A stretch of DNA of 64,000 nt from Coralliovum pocilloporae. Lineage in GTDB: Bacteria; Pseudomonadota; Alphaproteobacteria; Rhizobiales; Cohaesibacteraceae. A program made the position numbers and the translations under genes. This document shows positions 53,750 to 63,966 of this stretch, piece by piece. The stretch spans positions 1,771,501 to 1,835,500 of the forward strand of contig NZ_CP132542.1 of assembly GCF_030845175.1 (NCBI RefSeq). The letters run 5' to 3'. The notes under the pieces are model-generated. The model saw only the letters and a program-made list of their open reading frames with translations. It had not been told where the DNA came from and did not search any database. Positions within the stretch are counted from its first letter, which is position 1. Each line of letters starts with the position of its first letter.

Positions 53750-54766
53750 ATGGCGGGAGCGGAGACCGATTGGCCGACCTATCTGGCAATTCGTGCTGCC
53801 TGGATGTCATTCGTGGGTGGTTCCACTCAATCAGAGATTGCCAGTCATCTGGGTATTTCTTCTGCAAAAGTTCACCGGCTCATCGCTCAGGCCCAGCGTG
53901 ACGGTCTGATCCGCTTCCAGATTGAAGGACGTCCGATTGAATGTCTGCAGTATGAGGATCAGTTGCAGGCTACTTTTGGTCTGAAAACCTGTCTGGTCGT
54001 TCCGCGTGTACGACCGGCGGGGCAATCTGAAGCGCATGTGATTGATGCGATTGCCTCCGCTGCGGGACCGTTCCTCGGTAATCTTCTTTCCCAGCCCCAT
54101 ATCGGCAGCGTCGGCGTGGGAATGGGGCGAACATTGAAAGCCGCGTTCTCCGCTCTGCCCAGGCAGCGAAGGGATGATCTCAGTGTTATGGCCGTGTCCG
54201 GCAGCCTGACGCCCAAGCTGGCGGCCAACCCCTATGACGTTATCCAGCTCTTGCAGGAGCGTACCGGGGCTGAGGGTTATTTCCTGCCGGTTCCGTATTT
54301 TGCCTCAAGCAGGCAGGAACGCGACACCTTTCTCAATCAGCCCAGCGTCCAGGATCTGATGGCGCGAGCCCGACAGGCGGATCTGTTTGTCATCGGCATC
54401 GGTTCCATTGATGATAAAAGCCACCTGATGACCACGGGTATGATTTCGACCGAAGAACAGTGCCGTCTGGAAAAGGCCGGAGCAGTCTGTGATCTGATGG
54501 GTCGTTTCCTCAATGATCAGGGGAGCCAGGTACAGACAGAGCTGGAGCGCCATCCAGTTGGTCTGCATTTCAATGATATCCGTGGCGCGCGTGTTGTTGC
54601 TCTCGCCGGGGGGCTCAACAAACTGGCTGCGACACGTGCCGCTCTTCTGAGCGGCGTCATATCAGACATCGTGCTGGACGAAGCCCTGGCCGCCGAACTG
54701 GTCGCATCCGGAGCAGGTGCAGCAAGATCCACATCGAAACTATCAACGCAATATTCTGAAGCATAA
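53750..54766 (+). CDS. SorC/DeoR-type sugar-binding transcriptional regulator of nucleoside genes
   Basis: A 338-residue regulator. The N-terminal helix-turn-helix is at about residues 22-56 with GGSTQSEIASHLGISSAKVHRL. The C-terminal sugar-phosphate-binding domain of the SorC family has SVGVGMGRTLKAAFSAL, VMAVSGSLTPKLAANPYDV, ADLFVIGIGSIDDKSHL and VALAGGLNKLAATRAAL. By analogy with Bacillus DeoR it probably senses deoxyribose-5-phosphate and controls the downstream nucleoside operon; this is inferred from context. A long inverted repeat precedes the gene. The second BMP gene starts 26 bases after its stop. Confidence 0.9.
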   Translation: MAGAETDWPTYLAIRAAWMSFVGGSTQSEIASHLGISSAKVHRLIAQAQRDGLIRFQIEGRPIECLQYEDQLQATFGLKTCLVVPRVRPAGQSEAHVIDAIASAAGPFLGNLLSQPHIGSVGVGMGRTLKAAFSALPRQRRDDLSVMAVSGSLTPKLAANPYDVIQLLQERTGAEGYFLPVPYFASSRQERDTFLNQPSVQDLMARARQADLFVIGIGSIDDKSHLMTTGMISTEEQCRLEKAGAVCDLMGRFLNDQGSQVQTELERHPVGLHFNDIRGARVVALAGGLNKLAATRAALLSGVISDIVLDEALAAELVASGAGAARSTSKLSTQYSEA

Positions 54767-54792: not shown

Positions 54793-55791
54793 ATGACATT
54801 CATGAAAACCCTGATGGGAGCCCTGGTTGGCACTGCATTGGCCAGCGCCGCCTGGGCCGCGGAAATCAAGCCTGCTCTGGTCTATGATGCGGGCGGGAAG
54901 TTCGACAAGTCCTTTAACGAAGCGGCCTATACAGGCGCAGAGAAGTTCAAGTCCGAGGCTGGCATCGCTTATCGCGATTTCGAGATCCAGAATGACAGCC
55001 AGCGTGAGCAGGCAATGCGGAACTTTGCCCGCCGTGGCTATTCGCCCATCGTGGCGATCGGCTTTTCTCAGGCCGAAGCCGTGCGCAAGGTCGCCACAGA
55101 GTTCCCGGATACGAAGTTCGCCATCATCGACATGTTTGTTGATCTGCCAAATGTTCGCTCGGTGGTCTTCAAGGAACATGAAGGATCCTATCTGGTCGGG
55201 CTTCTGGCAGCGCTGAAATCGGAAAGTGGCAAGGTCGGCTTTGTCGGTGGCATGGATATTCCTCTGATCCGCCGCTTTGCCTGCGGGTACGTGCAGGGTG
55301 CCAAGGCTGCCAGAGACGGAGCGGAAGTTTTCCAGAATATGACCGGCACAACAGGTGCGGCCTGGAGCGATCCGGTCAAGGGCAGTGAACTGGCCAAGGC
55401 GCAGTTCGACAAGGGTGCGGATGTTGTCTACCACGCAGCAGGTGGTACCGGCCTTGGTGTGCTGCAGGCTGCAGCGGATGCCGGGAAACTGGGTATCGGG
55501 GTTGATTCCAACCAGAACCATCTGCATCCGGGCAAGGTTCTCACATCCATGCTCAAGCGGGTGGATATCGCTGTCTACAACGCCTTTGAAGATGACAGAA
55601 ACGGCAAATGGTCCAACGGCCTGCAGGTTCTGGGTCTGGCGCAAGGCGGCGTTGACTGGGCGCTGGATGACAACAACAAGGCTCTGATTTCTGATGAGAT
55701 GATGGCTGCGGTGCGGGCTGCTGAGGCGGATATCAAGTCTGGCAAAGTGGTTGTCCATGACTACATGGCCGATTCCACCTGCCCGTTCTGA
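54793..55791 (+). CDS. BMP-family nucleoside ABC substrate-binding protein, copy 2
   Basis: A 332-residue secreted protein with signal peptide MTFMKTLMGALVGTALASAAWA. Conserved blocks are LVYDAGGKFDKSFNEAAYTG, GFVGGMDIPLIRRFACGYVQG, GLGVLQAAADAGKLGIGVDSNQN and LTSMLKRVDIAVYNAF. It is the binding protein directly linked to the ATPase and permease genes, so it is likely the main nucleoside receptor. GGGAGG sits just before ATG 54793; GTG 54781 and ATG 54802 are possible starts. Confidence 0.93.
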   Translation: MTFMKTLMGALVGTALASAAWAAEIKPALVYDAGGKFDKSFNEAAYTGAEKFKSEAGIAYRDFEIQNDSQREQAMRNFARRGYSPIVAIGFSQAEAVRKVATEFPDTKFAIIDMFVDLPNVRSVVFKEHEGSYLVGLLAALKSESGKVGFVGGMDIPLIRRFACGYVQGAKAARDGAEVFQNMTGTTGAAWSDPVKGSELAKAQFDKGADVVYHAAGGTGLGVLQAAADAGKLGIGVDSNQNHLHPGKVLTSMLKRVDIAVYNAFEDDRNGKWSNGLQVLGLAQGGVDWALDDNNKALISDEMMAAVRAAEADIKSGKVVVHDYMADSTCPF

Positions 55792-55803
55792 TGAAAGACG
55801 AGA

Positions 55804-57354
55804 ATGACCGCGGCGATTGAGCTCGCAGGAATTGACAAGCGGTTTGGGGCGGTTCACGCCAACCGGTCCATTGACCTGACGGTTGATCGTGGCAGCATCC
55901 ACGGGATCATCGGGGAGAATGGTGCGGGTAAATCCACCCTGATGTCGATCCTCTATGGCTTCTACACAGCGGATAAGGGCGAGATAAGGGTTGGCGGCGC
56001 GCCGGTCAGTATCTCCGACAGCCAGACGGCCATCTCCCTTGGTATCGGCATGGTTCATCAGCATTTCATGCTGGTGGATACGTTTACTGTGCTTGAAAAT
56101 ATCATGCTTGGCGTCGAGGGAGGCGCATTACTGAAGGCTGGAGCGGCTAAAGTCCGTGCGGAATTGCTGCGTCTGGCGCGGGATTATGCCCTTGATATCG
56201 ACCCTGATGCACTGGTTGCTGACCTGCCGGTCGGGCTGCAGCAGCGGGTCGAAATTCTGAAGGCTCTTTATCGCGGGGCGGATATTCTGATCCTTGATGA
56301 GCCGACAGGGGTTTTGACACCTTCTGAAGCTGATCATCTGTTCCGGATTCTCGACAAGCTGCGTGCGGAAGGCAAGACGGTTCTTCTGATCACCCACAAG
56401 CTCCGCGAAATCATGGCAATCACGGATACGGTTTCTGTCATGCGGCAGGGTGCTATGGTTGCCACGGTCAAGACGGCAGAGACACGGATTGAGGATCTGG
56501 CGGAGCTGATGGTTGGTCGTCGCGTGCTGCTGCAGGTCGACAAGGAGGCCGCCCGGCCCGGTGACGATCTGCTGACTGTGCAAGACCTCACAGTAACCGA
56601 CAGCCGTGGCGTTACCCTGCTCGATACGGTTTCTTTCTCTGTGAAAGCTGGAGAAATCCTAGGGATTGCCGGGGTTTCAGGCAATGGCCAGAGTGAGCTT
56701 CTGGAAGTGCTCGCGGGGATACGGCAGGCATCAGGCGGGGCAATCATGGTGCTGGGCCATACAATCGACCCGTCTGACACACCGGACCCGGCGCGGATGC
56801 GCACGTTCGGTGTTGCCCATGTGCCGGAAGACCGCCATCGCATGGGGCTGGTCACACACTTCTCAGCCGAGGAGAATGCCATTCTCGGCTATCATCATGA
56901 TGATGAACTGGCCTCCGGTCTTTTGTTTGACCGGACAGCTGTGCGTGCCAGAAGTGAGGCGGCGATTGAGGCTTTTGACATCCGGCCCGCCAGCTCTGAA
57001 CTGAAAGCCGCCAACTTCTCAGGTGGCAATCAGCAGAAAATCGTCCTGGCCCGCGAGATCGATCAGGATCCCGGCCTGCTTCTGGTTGGGCAGCCAACCC
57101 GCGGCGTTGATATTGGTGCGATTGAGTTCATCCACAAGCGCCTGATTGAATTGCGTGATGCAGGCAAGGCCATTGTGCTGGTGTCAGTGGAACTTGACGA
57201 GATCAGGGCGCTGGCGGACCGGGTTCTGGTCATGTGCGCCGGGCGCATAGTTGGCGAACGGCCGCCGGAAACCAGCGAGCAGGAGCTGGGGCTAATGATG
57301 GCTGGTGTGTCCGGAGTGGATGAGACTGGCCCAACGAAGAGAGACGTTGCATGA
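55804..57354 (+). CDS. Nucleoside ABC transporter ATP-binding protein (two ATPase domains)
   Basis: A 516-residue ATPase with tandem cassettes, as in BMP-linked nucleoside importers. The first domain has [16 protein letters not shown] (Walker A), MVHQHFMLVDTFTVLEN (Q-loop), LPVGLQQRVEILKALYRGA and ILILDEPTGVLTPSE. The second has GVSGNGQSELLEVLAG (degenerate Walker A), FSGGNQQKIVLAREI and LLLVGQPTRGVDIGA, in which the Walker B glutamate is replaced (VGQPT), normal for this family. It overlaps the first permease by 4 bases (ATGA). Confidence 0.94.
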   Translation: MTAAIELAGIDKRFGAVHANRSIDLTVDRGSIHGIIGENGAGKSTLMSILYGFYTADKGEIRVGGAPVSISDSQTAISLGIGMVHQHFMLVDTFTVLENIMLGVEGGALLKAGAAKVRAELLRLARDYALDIDPDALVADLPVGLQQRVEILKALYRGADILILDEPTGVLTPSEADHLFRILDKLRAEGKTVLLITHKLREIMAITDTVSVMRQGAMVATVKTAETRIEDLAELMVGRRVLLQVDKEAARPGDDLLTVQDLTVTDSRGVTLLDTVSFSVKAGEILGIAGVSGNGQSELLEVLAGIRQASGGAIMVLGHTIDPSDTPDPARMRTFGVAHVPEDRHRMGLVTHFSAEENAILGYHHDDELASGLLFDRTAVRARSEAAIEAFDIRPASSELKAANFSGGNQQKIVLAREIDQDPGLLLVGQPTRGVDIGAIEFIHKRLIELRDAGKAIVLVSVELDEIRALADRVLVMCAGRIVGERPPETSEQELGLMMAGVSGVDETGPTKRDVA

Positions 57355-58451
57355 GTGCACCGCGCGCAGCACTACCGGCCTGGGTGGACTATGGCCTGAT
57401 CCCGATACTGAACCTGGCCGCAGCCTTTCTGGTCTCCGGCCTGGTGGTTCTTCTGATTGGTGAAAGCCCGGTCGAGGCTGTTAAGGTTCTGCTGTTCGGC
57501 GCGTTCGGCTATGAGGAAGGGCTTGGCTTCACGCTCTACTATGCCACCAACTTTATCTTTACCGGCCTTGCTATGGCTGTCGCCGTCCACTGTGGTCTGT
57601 TCAATATTGGCGGCGAGGGGCAGGCCTATGTGGCAGGCCTCGGGGTGGCGCTGGCCTGTCTGGCCATGGACAGCTTTGCACCCTGGTGGGTGATCCTGCC
57701 TTTCGCCATTCTCGGGGCTGCACTCTTCGGGGCTGCATGGGCGTGGGTGCCGGCCTATCTTCAGGCCAGGCGCGGCAGCCATGTGGTTATCACCACCATC
57801 ATGTTCAATTTCATTGCCGCGTCGCTGATGGTCTATCTGCTGGTCAATGTGTTGAAAGTGCCGGGATCGATGCAGCCGGAAACCCGCACCTTTGAAGAAG
57901 GTGGTCGGCTGCCGTTCATCCATCAGGTGGTGGAATGGTTCGGCGGTACCATGGCCCATTCGCCTCTGAACCTGTCCTTTGTTATCGCGCTGCTGGCAGC
58001 GTTCGGCGTCTGGTTGCTGATCTGGCGGACACGGCTCGGCTATGAAATCCGCACGATGGGGCACAATCAGACGGCAGCCGTCTATGCCGGGATCAAGCCG
58101 GACCGGATTATCATCATCACCATGATGATTTCCGGCGGGCTGGCCGGAATGATGGCGCTGAACGAGGTGATGGGTGTTCAGCATCGCCTGCTGATAGACT
58201 TCACCAGCGGATACGGTTTTGTCGGCATCGCGGTCGCCTTTATGGGGCGGTCTCACCCGGTGGGCATCATTCTGGCCTCTGTCCTGTTCGGGGTGCTTTA
58301 TCAGGGCGGGGCCGAGCTGGCGTTTGAAATTCCCGCCATCACCCGAGACATGATCATCACCATTCAGGGTCTGGTCATCCTGTTTGCCGGAGCCCTTGAG
58401 CATATGTTCCGGCCTGCACTTGGGGCGATGTTTCGCCCTCAGCCGGCATAG
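57351..58451 (+). CDS. Nucleoside ABC transporter permease, first subunit
   Basis: A 366-residue membrane protein with about ten hydrophobic segments. Features of the BMP-linked permease family are LAMAVAVHCGLFNIGGEGQ, SHVVITTIMFNFIAASLMVY, GHNQTAAVYAGIKPDRIIII and YGFVGIAVAFMGRSHPVGI. It should pair with the second permease to form the heterodimeric channel. Its start overlaps the ATPase stop (ATGA), and the second permease starts 9 bases after its own stop with GGAGG upstream. Confidence 0.93.
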   Translation: MSAPRAALPAWVDYGLIPILNLAAAFLVSGLVVLLIGESPVEAVKVLLFGAFGYEEGLGFTLYYATNFIFTGLAMAVAVHCGLFNIGGEGQAYVAGLGVALACLAMDSFAPWWVILPFAILGAALFGAAWAWVPAYLQARRGSHVVITTIMFNFIAASLMVYLLVNVLKVPGSMQPETRTFEEGGRLPFIHQVVEWFGGTMAHSPLNLSFVIALLAAFGVWLLIWRTRLGYEIRTMGHNQTAAVYAGIKPDRIIIITMMISGGLAGMMALNEVMGVQHRLLIDFTSGYGFVGIAVAFMGRSHPVGIILASVLFGVLYQGGAELAFEIPAITRDMIITIQGLVILFAGALEHMFRPALGAMFRPQPA

Positions 58452-58460
58452 GAGGCGATA

Positions 58461-59429
58461 ATGACGCTCCTTGATCTGATCGCCATTCTGGATTCAGCCG
58501 TTCGCCTGTCGGTGCCACTGTTGTTTGCTGCCCTTGCGGGGCTTTATTCCGAGCGGTCCGGCATTTTTGATATTGGCCTTGAAGGCAAGATGCTGGCTGC
58601 GGCCTTTGCAGCCGGTGCTGCAGCCGGTGTCACCCAATCGGCCTGGATCGGTCTGTCAGCCGGAATTGCCGTCTCCATCGTGCTGGCACTCGTTCACGGG
58701 TTTGCATCCATCACCCAGCGCGGCAACCAGATTGTCTCAGGCGTTGCAATCAACTTTGTTGCTGTCGGCCTGACGGCTCTTCTCGGGCAGGCCTGGTTCC
58801 ACCAGGGCGGGCGCACACCGGCAGTCTCAGGTGACGGGCGCTTCAATCCTGTCTATCTGCCCTTTGCCGAGGATCTGGTTCAGGTGTCGGTACTGGGGCC
58901 CATTTATGAGGGCCTGATCTCGGGGCACAATCTTCTTGTCTATCTCGCCTTTCTGGCTGTTCCCGTAACCTGGTGGGTTCTGTTCCGAACCCGGTTCGGC
59001 CTGCGCTTGCGGGCCGTGGGTGAAAATCCGGCGGCCGTTGATACAGCAGGTATCTCGGTTATCTGGCTGCGATATCGTGCGGTGATCATCTGCGGGATCC
59101 TGTGCGGGTTGGCCGGGGCCTATCTGTCGATTGGTCAGTCGGCGGGGTTCATCCGTGATATGACGGCGGGCAAGGGTTTCATCGCACTGGCGGCCCTGAT
59201 CTTTGCCAAATGGCGGCCGTGGCCGGTTCTCGGATCATGCTTTCTGTTTGGTTTTCTCGATGCGGTTGCCATTCGGCTGCAAGGGGTGGCCCTGCCGGGT
59301 GTGGGAGAGCTGCCTATCCAGATTTTCCAGGCACTGCCCTATGTGCTGACCGTTATTCTGCTGGCCGGGTTTATCGGCAAGGCTGTGCCGCCGAAGGCAG
59401 GCGGCATCCCCTATGTGAAGGAACGCTAG
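58461..59429 (+). CDS. Nucleoside ABC transporter permease, second subunit
   Basis: A 322-residue membrane protein with eight to ten hydrophobic segments. LFAALAGLYSERSGIFDIGLEGKM near the N-terminus, ITQRGNQIVSGVAINFVAVGL, FRTRFGLRLRAVGENPAAVDTAGI and TAGKGFIALAALIFAKWRPW are typical of the second permease of BMP-linked importers. A good GGAGG ribosome site precedes ATG 58461. The cytidine deaminase gene starts 3 bases after its stop. Confidence 0.93.
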   Translation: MTLLDLIAILDSAVRLSVPLLFAALAGLYSERSGIFDIGLEGKMLAAAFAAGAAAGVTQSAWIGLSAGIAVSIVLALVHGFASITQRGNQIVSGVAINFVAVGLTALLGQAWFHQGGRTPAVSGDGRFNPVYLPFAEDLVQVSVLGPIYEGLISGHNLLVYLAFLAVPVTWWVLFRTRFGLRLRAVGENPAAVDTAGISVIWLRYRAVIICGILCGLAGAYLSIGQSAGFIRDMTAGKGFIALAALIFAKWRPWPVLGSCFLFGFLDAVAIRLQGVALPGVGELPIQIFQALPYVLTVILLAGFIGKAVPPKAGGIPYVKER

Positions 59430-59432
59430 ATC

Positions 59433-59831
59433 ATGGCGAATGATCTGTTCGAGGCGGCTCGTGCCGCCCAGGAAAAGGCTTATGCGCCCTATTCGAACTT
59501 CCCGGTCGGCGCGGCCATCCGGGCAGGATCAGGGGCGATTTATACCGGCTGCAATGTGGAAAATGCCTCCTATCCGGAAGGATGGTGCGCAGAGACCTCT
59601 GCCATCGGCCAGATGGTTGTGGCAGGCGATCTCAGAATAGTCGAGATCTGCGTCATCGGCAGTGCTGATATGGTGATCACACCATGTGGTGGTTGCAGGC
59701 AGCGCCTGGCGGAGTTTTCAAGCCCGGAGACACGTGTCTTCGCTGCAGGCCCGGATGGAATTCGCGCGACTTATACCATGGCGGACCTGCTGCCCGCTGC
59801 GTTCTCACTGGAACAGGACAGGTCCGAATGA
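59433..59831 (+). CDS. cdd: Cytidine deaminase
   Basis: A 132-residue zinc enzyme of the small homotetrameric class that converts (deoxy)cytidine to (deoxy)uridine. KAYAPYSNFPVGAAIRAGSG, the active site NVENASYPEGWCAETSAI (zinc Cys and catalytic Glu) and TPCGGCRQRLAEF (two further zinc cysteines) are all present. It feeds pyrimidine nucleosides to the thymidine phosphorylase encoded downstream. Its stop overlaps the start of the fusion gene that follows (ATGA). Confidence 0.96.
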   Translation: MANDLFEAARAAQEKAYAPYSNFPVGAAIRAGSGAIYTGCNVENASYPEGWCAETSAIGQMVVAGDLRIVEICVIGSADMVITPCGGCRQRLAEFSSPETRVFAAGPDGIRATYTMADLLPAAFSLEQDRSE

Positions 59832-61387
59832 GTATCGAGACGATCATCAGGACTATCCGCGAGCGCACCGGTCTTTCTGTGCGATATGGTCTTGTGCTTG
59901 GCTCGGGACTTGGAGATCTGGCTGACGAGTTCAGCGATCCGGTACGGATTCCCTATGAGGATCTGCCGGGCTTTCCGGTCTCTGGCGTGGCATCCCATGC
60001 GGGAGAACTGGTAATAGGGCATCTGGAAGAAAGCCCTGTGGTGATCCTCTCCGGTCGCGTCCATTATTATGAATCAGGAGATTCCCAGGCCATGCGCCTG
60101 CCTCTTGAGACAGTGAAAGCGCTGGGCGCAGAAGGTGTTATCCTGACCAATGCGGCGGGATCTCTGAGAGACGACATCCCGCCTGGAGATATCATGCAGA
60201 TTGCCGATCACATTAATCTCGGCAATCGTAATCCGTTGATCGGGCACGATATCGACGACCGGTTTGTGGATATGACGGAAGCTTATGACGGTGCGTGGCG
60301 TGCCTGGATGAAAGAGGCAGCCAATGCCGAAGGTATCGCGCTTGAAGCGGGTACCTATATGTGGTTTTCCGGCCCCAGTTTCGAAACGCCTGCGGAAATC
60401 CGTATGGCGCGTGTGCTCGGTGCGGATGCTGTCGGCATGTCCACGGTGCCTGAGACCATTCTGGCCCGTTGGCTCGGGTTGAAGGTTGCCGGGTTCTCGA
60501 CCATTACCAATTTTGCCGCGGGGATGACGGGAAATGCATTGTCCCATGAAGAAACAATGGCGCTCGGCCCCATCGGGGCTGACAAGATCAAGCGGGTAAT
60601 CAGACGGTTCATGAGAGATCAATCCATACGGGACAGGGACGCTGCAATCCGCGCTATCCGACTGCTCGATCTGACCAATCTGAATGATGACTGTGATACA
60701 GCGGCTATTAGCAGTCTGTGCAAGCTGGCCCAGACACCATTTGGCAATACGGCAGCAATCTGTATCTGGTCACAGTTTGTGGAACAGGCCAAAGCCGAGC
60801 TGGCTGGCACGGGTATCAGGATAGCAACTGTCATCAATTTTCCCCATGGCGGAACAGATATACAGGCCGTCTTGCAGGAAGCGGATGAGGCGATGGCAGC
60901 CGGTGCGGACGAGCTGGATCTGGTCTTTCCTTATCATGCTTTCATGGAAGGCAATCACCAGCTCGCCAGCGATATGATCAGGCAGGTCAAGGATCGCTGC
61001 ACGGGGGATGTGCGGCTCAAGGTTATTCTTGAAACCGGTTGTCTCGAGACTGAAGTCCTGATCCGGGAGGCAAGCCGGCTCGCCATTGAGGCCGGGGCCG
61101 ATTTCATCAAGACCTCCACCGGCAAGGTGGCGGTCAATGCCACGCCGGAGGTCGCGGCCTACATGCTTGAGGAGATTGCCAGCTCGGGTCGGGATGTGGG
61201 TTTCAAACCGGCAGGCGGGCTGAAGACAGCGTCTGATGCCGCTGCATATCTGGCTCTGGCAGATCGTATTCTGGGCCTGGACTGGGCCATGGCAGACCGG
61301 TTCCGCTTTGGCGCCAGCAGTGTGTTGAAAGCTCTGCTTGCCACGGCCGAGGGGCGTGAAGCCGGACAAGTGGATGAGGGGTATTGA
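59828..61387 (+). CDS. Bifunctional purine nucleoside phosphorylase / deoxyribose-phosphate aldolase (fusion)
   Basis: One uninterrupted 519-residue frame. Residues 1-262 are a trimeric-type purine nucleoside phosphorylase: phosphate loop GLVLGSGLGD (21-30), VILSGRVHYYE (72-82), ILTNAAGS (105-112), MWFSGPSFETPAEIRM (178-193), GMSTVPE (203-209) and TNFAAG (227-232). Residues 270-519 are class I DeoC: RLLDLTNLNDDCD, FGNTAAICI, TVINFPHGG, ELDLVFPY (Asp364), DFIKTSTGKVAVNATP (Schiff-base Lys428) and VGFKPAGG (Lys460), ending in the DeoC-like DEGY tail. All catalytic residues of both halves remain. The start is fixed by the ATGA overlap with cdd. Normally these are separate genes joined through phosphopentomutase. 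Confidence 0.93.
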   Translation: MSIETIIRTIRERTGLSVRYGLVLGSGLGDLADEFSDPVRIPYEDLPGFPVSGVASHAGELVIGHLEESPVVILSGRVHYYESGDSQAMRLPLETVKALGAEGVILTNAAGSLRDDIPPGDIMQIADHINLGNRNPLIGHDIDDRFVDMTEAYDGAWRAWMKEAANAEGIALEAGTYMWFSGPSFETPAEIRMARVLGADAVGMSTVPETILARWLGLKVAGFSTITNFAAGMTGNALSHEETMALGPIGADKIKRVIRRFMRDQSIRDRDAAIRAIRLLDLTNLNDDCDTAAISSLCKLAQTPFGNTAAICIWSQFVEQAKAELAGTGIRIATVINFPHGGTDIQAVLQEADEAMAAGADELDLVFPYHAFMEGNHQLASDMIRQVKDRCTGDVRLKVILETGCLETEVLIREASRLAIEAGADFIKTSTGKVAVNATPEVAAYMLEEIASSGRDVGFKPAGGLKTASDAAAYLALADRILGLDWAMADRFRFGASSVLKALLATAEGREAGQVDEGY

Positions 61388-61389
61388 TC

Positions 61390-62718
61390 ATGCTGCCGCA
61401 GGAAGTGATCCGCCACAAAAGGCAGGGCAAGGTTCTGTCGCTTGAAGAGATAGAGTTCTTCGTTCAGGGCATGACGGATGGCTCCATCAGCGAAGGTCAG
61501 TTGGCGGCTTTTGCCATGGCTGTGATTTTCAACGGCATGACGCTCACCGAGCGTGTCGCCCTGACCCGTTCCATGCGGGATTCGGGGTCTGTCATGTCCT
61601 GGCCGGATCTGGATGGTCCTGTGCTCGACAAGCACTCGACTGGTGGCGTTGGCGATAATGTGTCTTTGGCGCTGGCTCCCATTGTTGCGGCCTGTGGCGG
61701 CTTTGTTCCGATGATTTCCGGACGGGGGCTTGGTCATACGGGCGGTACGCTCGACAAATTCGAGGCCATTCCCGGTTACAAGACCAAGCCGGATAACGAC
61801 CTGTTCCGTTCCGTGGTCAAGGATGTTGGCTGTGCGATTATCGGGCAGACAGACGATCTGGCACCGGCAGACAAGAGGTTCTATGCGGTTCGGGATGTCA
61901 CCGCGACGGTTGAGTCCGTCGATCTGATTACCGCGTCCATTCTGTCAAAGAAACTGGCCGCTGGCCTTGATGGGCTGGTACTGGATGTGAAATGTGGTTC
62001 GGGCGCATTCATGGAAAACCCGGATGATGCGCGGGCGCTCTCGGAAAGTCTGGTCCTTGTTGCCAATCGGGCCGGAGTACGCACATCTGCTTTGCTGACA
62101 GACATGAGCCAGCCTCTTGCCAATGCTGCAGGCAATGCGGTTGAGATGCGTAACGCGGTTGAGCTGCTGACCAATGATGGCCATGACACGCGATTACGAG
62201 CGGCAACCCTGGCCCTTGCTGCTGAAATGCTGGTGGTCGGGGGGCTCTATCCGGACAATGGGCAGGCTCTAGAGGCTGCAGAGGAGGCCCTGACGTCAGG
62301 GCGGGCTGCAGCGCGCTTCGGGCGGATGGTCAGCGCTCTGGGCGGGCCTTCAGATTTCATCGAATGGATGGATCATTATCTGCCGAAAGCCGATCATGTG
62401 GTTCCGGTTCCTGCGCTGAAACCCGGCCTTGTCACGACTATTGATACAAGAGCCGTCGGTGTTGCCGTGGTCGAGCTCGGCGGTGGTCGTGTGCGCCCGG
62501 AAGATGACATTGACCATGGTGTCGGGTTGACCGGACTTGTGGAAGTGGGAACCAGGATTGAGGCGGGGCAGCCACTGGCACTTGTTCACGCCCGCACAGA
62601 GGATGATGCAGAACGCGCCATTGCCCGCGTGCAGGCCGCCTACACCGTTTCCGATATGGCAGATGCACCGGAAATCAGCTCCGTTGTTCTCGACAGGGTG
62701 GATTTTGATGATGCCTGA
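61390..62718 (+). CDS. deoA: Thymidine phosphorylase
   Basis: A 442-residue enzyme that splits thymidine and deoxyuridine to base plus deoxyribose-1-phosphate. VLDKHSTGGVGDNVSLALAP, the signature SGRGLGHTGGTLDKFEAIPG, VESVDLITASILSKKLAAGL and LVLDVKCGSGAFM are diagnostic. The C-terminal domain has RVRPEDDIDHGVGLTGL. ATG 61390 has GAGGGG upstream; TTG 61384 also opens the frame. It begins 2 bases after the fusion gene. Confidence 0.96.
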   Translation: MLPQEVIRHKRQGKVLSLEEIEFFVQGMTDGSISEGQLAAFAMAVIFNGMTLTERVALTRSMRDSGSVMSWPDLDGPVLDKHSTGGVGDNVSLALAPIVAACGGFVPMISGRGLGHTGGTLDKFEAIPGYKTKPDNDLFRSVVKDVGCAIIGQTDDLAPADKRFYAVRDVTATVESVDLITASILSKKLAAGLDGLVLDVKCGSGAFMENPDDARALSESLVLVANRAGVRTSALLTDMSQPLANAAGNAVEMRNAVELLTNDGHDTRLRAATLALAAEMLVVGGLYPDNGQALEAAEEALTSGRAAARFGRMVSALGGPSDFIEWMDHYLPKADHVVPVPALKPGLVTTIDTRAVGVAVVELGGGRVRPEDDIDHGVGLTGLVEVGTRIEAGQPLALVHARTEDDAERAIARVQAAYTVSDMADAPEISSVVLDRVDFDDA

Positions 62719-62742: not shown

Positions 62743-63966
62743 ATGGCCCGGGCTTTTCTCATGGTTATGGATTCATTTGGCATCGGCGGTGCGCCGGATG
62801 CGGCGGCATTTGGCGATGAGGGCGCTGATACATTCGGCCACATTGCTGAGGCCTGTGCAGAAGGGCGGGCGGATGTGCCGGGCCTGCGTCATGGCCCATT
62901 GCTCCTCCCCAATCTGCAAAGGCTTGGCCTTTTGGAGGCAGCCAGGAAGGTTGCCGGGAAGACTGTTGCCTCTCTGGGGTTTGAAGGGGAGATCACAGGC
63001 TTCTGGGGTGCTGCTCATGAAATCTCGAACGGCAAAGACACACCATCGGGCCACTGGGAACTTGCAGGCGTGCCGGTCACGTTTGACTGGGGCTATTTCC
63101 CTGATACGCGCCCTTCGTTCCCGGAGGACTTCACCCGAGCCTTTATTCGTGAGGCGAGATTGCCGGGGATCCTGGGAGATTGCCATGCATCCGGGACGGT
63201 GATCATTGATGAATTCGGTGAAGAACACGTCCGCAGCGGTAAACCCATCTGTTATACAAGTGCGGATTCCGTTCTCCAGATTGCTGCTCATGAGGAGCAT
63301 TTCGGGCTTGAGAGGCTTTATGATATCTGCGCCATCGCCCGTGAAATGCTCTACGACCTGAACATTGGCCGGGTGATCGCAAGGCCCTTTGTGGGAGAAG
63401 ACAGGGCCAGTTTCGAACGGACGGCCAACCGGCGGGATTTCTCCGTATTGCCACCTGCTCCCACATTGCTGGACCGGGCAAAGGCGGCTGGTCGGTCTGT
63501 TCATGCGGTCGGCAAGTTGAATGATATCTTTGCAGGCCAGGGCGTGACAGATGTTCACAAGGCTGCGGGGACAGACGCGCTTTTTGACCTGACCCTGTCG
63601 CTTGTAGACACAGCCCGGGATGGTGATCTGGTTTTCGTGAACTTTGTCGATTTTGACACGCTCTATGGACACCGTCGGGATATTCCCGGTTATGCCGCTG
63701 CTCTTGAGGCATTTGACGCGCGGCTGCCGGAGCTGGAAGCCCGCCTGCGGCCCGGTGACCTTGCGGTTCTGACTGCAGACCATGGCTGTGATCCGAGCTG
63801 GCATGGAACAGAACACACGCGGGAGCAGGTTCCGTTTCTGGCGTTTGGGCCTGGTCTTGAAGCTGGAGAAGCCCGTGATTCCATGACTTTCTCGGATATA
63901 GGCGCCAGTGTTGCCCATCATCTGGATATTGATCAGGGGCCAGTGGGGAGGAGTGTCTGGATATGA
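62743..63966 (+). CDS. deoB: Phosphopentomutase
   Basis: A 407-residue alkaline-phosphatase-superfamily enzyme converting (deoxy)ribose-1-phosphate to the 5-phosphate, the step linking the two halves of the upstream fusion protein. Metal-binding segments include [51 protein letters not shown] and [31 protein letters not shown] and [16 protein letters not shown] are also typical. ATG 62743 is chosen with GGGGA upstream; GTG 62734 is possible. Its TGA overlaps a downstream ATG. Confidence 0.96.

Follow-up and report, generated by a model that had tools for sequence, protein, structure and literature searches.

Purine nucleoside phosphorylase (PNP) releases (deoxy)ribose 1-phosphate, phosphopentomutase (DeoB) makes the 5-phosphate, and deoxyribose-phosphate aldolase (DeoC, also referred to as DERA) cleaves the deoxy form. 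The preliminary description of the present locus placed the mutase between the PNP and DeoC steps, in agreement with this established pathway. Fusions of enzymes for non-consecutive steps are known, and the bifunctional HisB of E. coli skips one step too. The closest solved relative of residues 12–264 of the protein described here is the PNP of Agrobacterium vitis (PDB 4uc0, family TIGR01698; 331.8 bits), whose fold matches the PNP half up to residue 268 with a Z score of 38.0 and an rmsd of 1.2 over 246 residues. The 4uc0 enzyme is free-standing, without an aldolase domain, whereas the PNP here is fused; that enzyme and its family are presumably of the trimer type. E. coli DeoC (PDB 1jcl and 6z9h) is 54–55% identical to the second half and is fold-aligned from residues 265–268 (Z 38.0–38.3 over 242–245 residues). 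It is likewise free-standing with a free N-terminus, whereas the DeoC N-terminus here is continuous with PNP. According to PMC8403123, Lys167 of E. coli DeoC is the Schiff-base lysine, Lys201 the second lysine and Asp102 the catalytic aspartate, while Tyr259 takes part in catalysis and the C-terminal tyrosine can enter the active site. Asp102, Lys167, Lys201 and Tyr259 have counterparts here in Asp364, Lys428, Lys460 and Tyr519. The same text describes DERA as dimeric in mesophiles and suggests a monomer/dimer mixture for the E. coli enzyme (PMC8403123), and mammalian PNP is described as active as a trimer (PMC9916683).

Fused gene and operon

In the window, that is, the whole 64,000-nucleotide stretch of Coralliovum pocilloporae DNA that was analysed, pnp and deoC share one open frame in an operon with the order SorC/DeoR-type regulator, PnrA-like binding protein, ATPase, two probable permeases, cdd, pnp-deoC, deoA and deoB. 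The features are listed below.

53750..54766, + strand: SorC/DeoR-type regulator with a sugar-binding domain (PF04198); matches to LsrR and DeoR weak, below cut-off
54793..59429, + strand: probable nucleoside ABC transporter (PnrA-like binding protein, ATPase, two hydrophobic ORFs); neighbours conserved in relatives
59433..59831, + strand: cdd, cytidine deaminase; 4-nt overlap (ATGA) with the fused gene
59828..61387, + strand: fused pnp-deoC ORF, 519 aa; ATG 59828, stop TGA 61385–61387
59828..60619, + strand: PNP domain, residues 1–264 (PF01048 at 20–262; TIGR01698 above cut-off; PDB 4uc0)
60545..60661, + strand: continuous helix, residues 240–278 (PNP C-terminal helix plus DeoC N-terminal helix), in the AlphaFold2 model
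60611..60613, + strand: ATG codon of Met262 with A next (ATGA), probably the former start of deoC; any Shine-Dalgarno match is at background level
60623..61384, + strand: DeoC domain, residues 266–519 (TIGR00126 above cut-off; fold match to E. coli DeoC)
61390..62718, + strand: deoA, thymidine phosphorylase; starts 2 nt past the fused gene
62743..63966, + strand: deoB, phosphopentomutase; the step between PNP and DeoC
L062:14-841 (contig from 1835514, immediately past the downstream end of the window): PhyH-family (phytanoyl-CoA dioxygenase-like) gene, between deoB and add
L062:1939-4448: GTP cyclohydrolase II-like gene and DUF1688 gene, beside upp

Direct reading of the window gave 519 codons for the pnp-deoC frame with zero internal stops. 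A longer version of the frame opens at 59684, but 59828 is almost certainly the true start, because its ATG forms an ATGA overlap with the stop of cdd and the match to one PNP family model starts at residue 3. ATGA overlaps are found at 57351 (ATPase/permease) and 59828 (cdd/pnp). On the fused protein, Pfam places PF01048 at residues 20–262 and PF01791 at residues 277–473. The PNP half scores 343.9 bits with the NCBIfam model TIGR01698 PUNP (cut-off 302.6) and 332.9 bits with PRK08202 (cut-off 218), and the DeoC half scores 211.9 bits with the NCBIfam model TIGR00126 deoC (cut-off 117.3). The preliminary description had reported a single open frame joining a complete PNP to a complete DeoC, with GSGLG, ETPAE and TNFAAG in the first part and Asp364, Lys428 and Lys460 in the second; the frame, both families and all of these elements were recovered in their places. 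It also located deoB two genes downstream, which is where it lies, after deoA.

The PNP half contains GSGLG (25–29), GRVHYYE, FETPAE (ETPAE at 186–190), VGMS and TNFAAG (227–232), and residues L24–G27, R77, H79, Y81, E82, E186, M204, S205 and N228 are invariant in a 21-row alignment; we take these motifs and their residues to be active-site elements. In the DeoC half, Asp364, Lys428, Lys460 and the C-terminal Tyr519 are invariant in 16 aligned rows. Among ten other full-length rows, the C-terminal tyrosine is absent in two distant relatives, L058 and L059. The L058 DeoC may not be an aldolase, since both catalytic lysines are missing from its sequence as well as the tyrosine. The fusion looks real and rare, each half is an ordinary enzyme, and the novelty lies in the domain architecture as far as the searches reach, not in the kind of system. 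A search of the organism's genome, one contig of 3,918,007 bases, at E 0.001 gave one further match, to a PNP-superfamily protein of 27% identity; therefore no other DeoC and no other close PNP were found in it.

The SorC/DeoR-type regulator heads the operon and may sense deoxyribose or ribose phosphate, and the two hydrophobic ORFs of the transporter region are, judged by inspection, probable permeases. Downstream of the window the series continues with a gene for a PhyH-family dioxygenase, then add, genes for a GTP cyclohydrolase-like and a DUF1688 protein, and upp. In the relative G005, deoB is followed in series by add and upp. No PhyH match at 1e-20 was obtained in the other loci, most of which end before that region. 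The GTP cyclohydrolase II-like and DUF1688 genes by upp resemble the URC uracil-breakdown set, here adjoining the deo operon.

Junction and predicted structure

The sequence at the junction is TTCATGAG, with the codons TTC ATG AGA at the joint. The AlphaFold2 model of the fused chain (a monomer built with 21 rows; mean pLDDT 89.2, pTM 0.82) contains a helix spanning residues 240–278, with block pLDDT values of 96, 91 and 94 over residues 251–280. A control model built with DeoC rows only, without PNP rows or read-through rows, keeps a helix at 247–278 with block pLDDT values of 72, 74 and 91; its mean pLDDT is 65.8 and its PNP half is meaningless. The 50 Foldseek matches listed are all PNP or DeoC chains, each spanning approximately half of the model. 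Among the 50 rows listed, solved PNP chains align up to residues 265–270 and solved DeoC chains from residues 265–269, so the two folds meet without a linker; the apparent gap between the domains (263–276) arises from Pfam boundaries only. PNP and DeoC are predicted to be joined by one rigid helix. The linker of about 10 residues given in the preliminary description is wrong: the model helix runs through 240–278, and the solved folds meet at 265–270. The quaternary puzzle of a trimer-type PNP on a dimer-prone DeoC, which was raised there too, is genuine, and the rigid helix predicted in place of a flexible linker makes it sharper than that description had it.

Related loci and occurrence of the architecture

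Relatives with matches in the contig scan include Shinella, Rhizobium, Ensifer, Jiella and Aurantimonas. At all 40 related loci carrying both genes, a sample in which some members are close sister species, pnp precedes deoC and a stop codon lies between them. The spacing is −8 nt in 9 loci, −4 nt in 3, 0 nt in 1 and 9 to 249 nt in 27, the values for L031, L035 and L060 being upper limits because no DeoC ATG was found there. Given these spacings, a merger needs a small change only. The cdd-pnp-deoC-deoA order is conserved in the compared relatives having deoC. In L022 (Rhizobiales bacterium) and L026 (Ensifer adhaerens), deoA directly follows pnp and the stretch examined gave no deoC match. In L058 (genome G398, a distant relative of the same class), the pnp TAA stands directly before an in-frame deoC ATG, one codon from a fusion.

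Searches covered 61 genomes, 20 genomes of the family, 397 of the order (of which 198 gave a match at 1e-60), 385 of the class (at a limit of 1e-90), 398 of the phylum (at 1e-75), 7 individually selected genomes and 198 of the phylum of L042 (a Bacteroidetes record); the sets overlap, and the organism's own genome is in all except the set of 7 and that of the L042 phylum. The preliminary description had proposed a search for the same architecture across Hyphomicrobiales. Among the matches listed, from a comparison set without a congeneric genome, only the organism's own genome reads through both domains with no stop. Seven other listed matches span nearly all of both halves (G011, G016, G018, G317, G398, G503 and G972); each has one stop, which on reading falls at the junction. 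A partial match across the junction in G059 (183–502) also contains a stop. Frames of equal length (555–608 aa) suggested for G002, G004, G014, G019 and G042 were rejected, as direct reading shows a stop at the junction. No match to both halves was listed for the 198 genomes of the Bacteroidetes phylum. In eight of 261 matching plasmid records, 80% or more of the query is matched at a single place; four of these are annotated as two genes and four have no annotation under the match. None of the 33 phage matches covers 80% of the query. Owing to the strict E-value limits (down to 1e-90) and the use of listed matches, a diverged fusion could be missed.

PNP matches with frames of 390–820 aa suggested fusions with cdd or with other genes, but a cdd-pnp fusion was absent on direct reading of 63 cdd-matched loci (including the window's own, one genome twice and three loci with cdd far away). 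The long frames L150–L152, from another phylum, have no cdd match, and their upstream parts look out of frame by eye. A fusion screen of 81 ORFs with a best match of at least 45% in the G005 sample recovered pnp-deoC and L075 (394 aa). L075 matches two neighbouring G005 ORFs; as none of the three has a Pfam family, they were taken for shadow ORFs. Among the open-licence PMC papers listed, none was relevant to a fused or bifunctional PNP/DeoC. Judged from sequence, the fusion is so far a singleton in the sample, with a domain architecture that appears new as far as the searches reach.

Origin of the fusion and comparison with known systems

The explanation that we regard as probable is a bifunctional enzyme produced by merger of adjacent pnp and deoC genes in a tightly packed operon for nucleoside uptake and breakdown. 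The fused architecture was seen in one genome only, and a lineage-specific merger is likeliest. Probably a small indel in an overlap of the ATGA type, or else a deletion, would have removed the pnp stop, and the last helix of PNP would have been joined directly onto the first helix of DeoC, about at the DeoC start codon. Both catalytic sets and the C-terminal tyrosine are kept, and the chain should therefore carry both predicted activities, with purine (deoxy)nucleosides split by one end and deoxyribose 5-phosphate cleaved by the other, while separate DeoB would move the sugar phosphate between the two ends in free solution. Fusion through the DeoC N-terminus is the tolerable direction because the C-terminal tyrosine stays free, its E. 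coli counterpart Tyr259 being described as a participant in catalysis (PMC8403123). The effect would be a fixed 1:1 ratio and co-location of the two enzymes; the merger may instead be neutral. The PNP part probably sets a trimer, with the DeoC domains pointing outward on rigid helices.

Production of a free 258-aa DeoC alongside the fused chain, by ribosomes starting at ATG 60611, is rather improbable. This ATG is in frame, DeoC from there would be of normal length, and the DeoC starts of relatives align near it; from these sequences, it probably sits about at DeoC's own start position, a point that the preliminary description does not mention. In-frame start codons within residues 236–301 are TTG 238, ATG 244 and ATG 262, and in the 20 nt upstream of each the Shine-Dalgarno consensus is nowhere matched over 4 bases. 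For ATG 60611, the duplex energy of −3.8 kcal/mol compares with a background median of −2.5 kcal/mol, and 33% of 73 internal operon ATGs are at least as strong. The earlier claim that no internal start has a ribosome site holds for all three codons by the 4-base criterion, with 60611 falling within background. Eleven of the 12 overlapping relatives have a strong ribosome site (−6.6 to −11.4 kcal/mol) in the pnp tail before the deoC ATG, the exception being L052 (−2.1 kcal/mol). The absent site at 60611 is moderate evidence only, because weak sites also occur at real starts: that of the operon's ATPase gene is −0.9 kcal/mol, and 11 of 37 relatives' deoC starts (the 40 loci minus three without a DeoC ATG) are weaker than −4 kcal/mol, in a set biased to strong values since the best site among candidate ATGs was used at each locus. 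Some free DeoC could be made, since the probable deoC start stays in place.

It is quite improbable that an indel from sequencing or assembly simulates the fusion, with pnp in truth ending at TGA 60612–60614 and deoC starting at ATG 60611 in a 4-nt ATGA overlap. This reading deserved a test because an indel in the last pnp codons of TTCATGAG would give such an overlap; the operon has two further ATGA junctions (57351 and 59828), and a 4-nt overlap occurs at pnp/deoC in 3 of 40 relatives. The error would, however, have to land inside about 10 bases, in a single-contig genome with a listed completeness of 100 and contamination of 0.03. ORFs of the relative G005 were compared with 879 kb of this genome, taking the best stretch at 45% identity or more; no frame switch was found in 89 homologous queries, which represent 77 distinct stretches and 71,014 bases, the queries being six-frame ORFs, so that a gene may also be represented by shadow ORFs on its antisense strand. 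The rule of three then gives an error bound of approximately 3.9% per stretch and approximately 4 in 10,000 for a given 10-base site. In a first pass, 49 of 60 pairs at 50% identity or more were covered at 85% or more, and none of the other 11 had a second nearby ORF covering the remainder. An apparent in-frame stop in L088 has, on reading, the look of a shadow ORF on the antisense strand. Homology of the PNP frame extends through RRF, immediately 5' of the ATG, and the strong Shine-Dalgarno site of 11 of the 12 overlapping relatives is gone here (−3.8 kcal/mol); a base-calling error would not remove one. On this sequence evidence, an assembly indel is an unlikely source of the fusion.

That the fusion serves as a scaffold for DeoB, with deoxyribose phosphate channelled in a PNP-DeoB-DeoC complex, is highly improbable: pnp-deoC and deoB do share one operon and the mutase acts between the two fused domains, but pathway knowledge has DeoA yielding the same deoxyribose 1-phosphate and ribonucleosides having no need of DeoC, pnp and deoC are separate in 40 of 40 related loci having both, and none of the 8 papers listed in a literature search contains 'substrate channeling'.

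If pnp and deoC merged as proposed, the series of separate, overlapping and fused genes in one operon shows how packed operons can yield fusions. PNP is used in biocatalysis. DERA is used there as well (PMC8403123), and a PNP-DeoC that nature already makes as one chain would lend itself to coupling nucleoside phosphorolysis with aldolase chemistry. The rigid joint would provide a clean test of nature welding a trimer-type to a dimer-prone enzyme by a helix. From the model, a trimer-type PNP and a dimer-prone DeoC on an uninterrupted helix of about 39 residues might close into a defined, symmetric cage, or extend to a net or filament, as a natural parallel to designed assemblies, although we consider this doubtful; if true, the assembly would concentrate deoxyribose 1-phosphate release and 5-phosphate cleavage (acetaldehyde production) around free DeoB.

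PMC7658299 describes a designed cage of 12 subunits for which the recipe is to connect a dimer to a trimer through a short helix. The symmetry-matching fusions of Padilla, Colovos and Yeates (2001, via PMC7658299) join a trimeric and a dimeric protein by a helix, as predicted here for a trimer-type PNP and a dimer-prone DeoC; those fusions are designed, whereas pnp-deoC is natural. The pnp-deoC pairs of Hyphomicrobiales (Shinella, Jiella, Aurantimonas, Allorhizobium) have the same order and neighbours, with overlaps of 4 or 8 nt in some of them; pnp and deoC are kept apart by a stop codon in the 40 loci read, whereas here they are fused.
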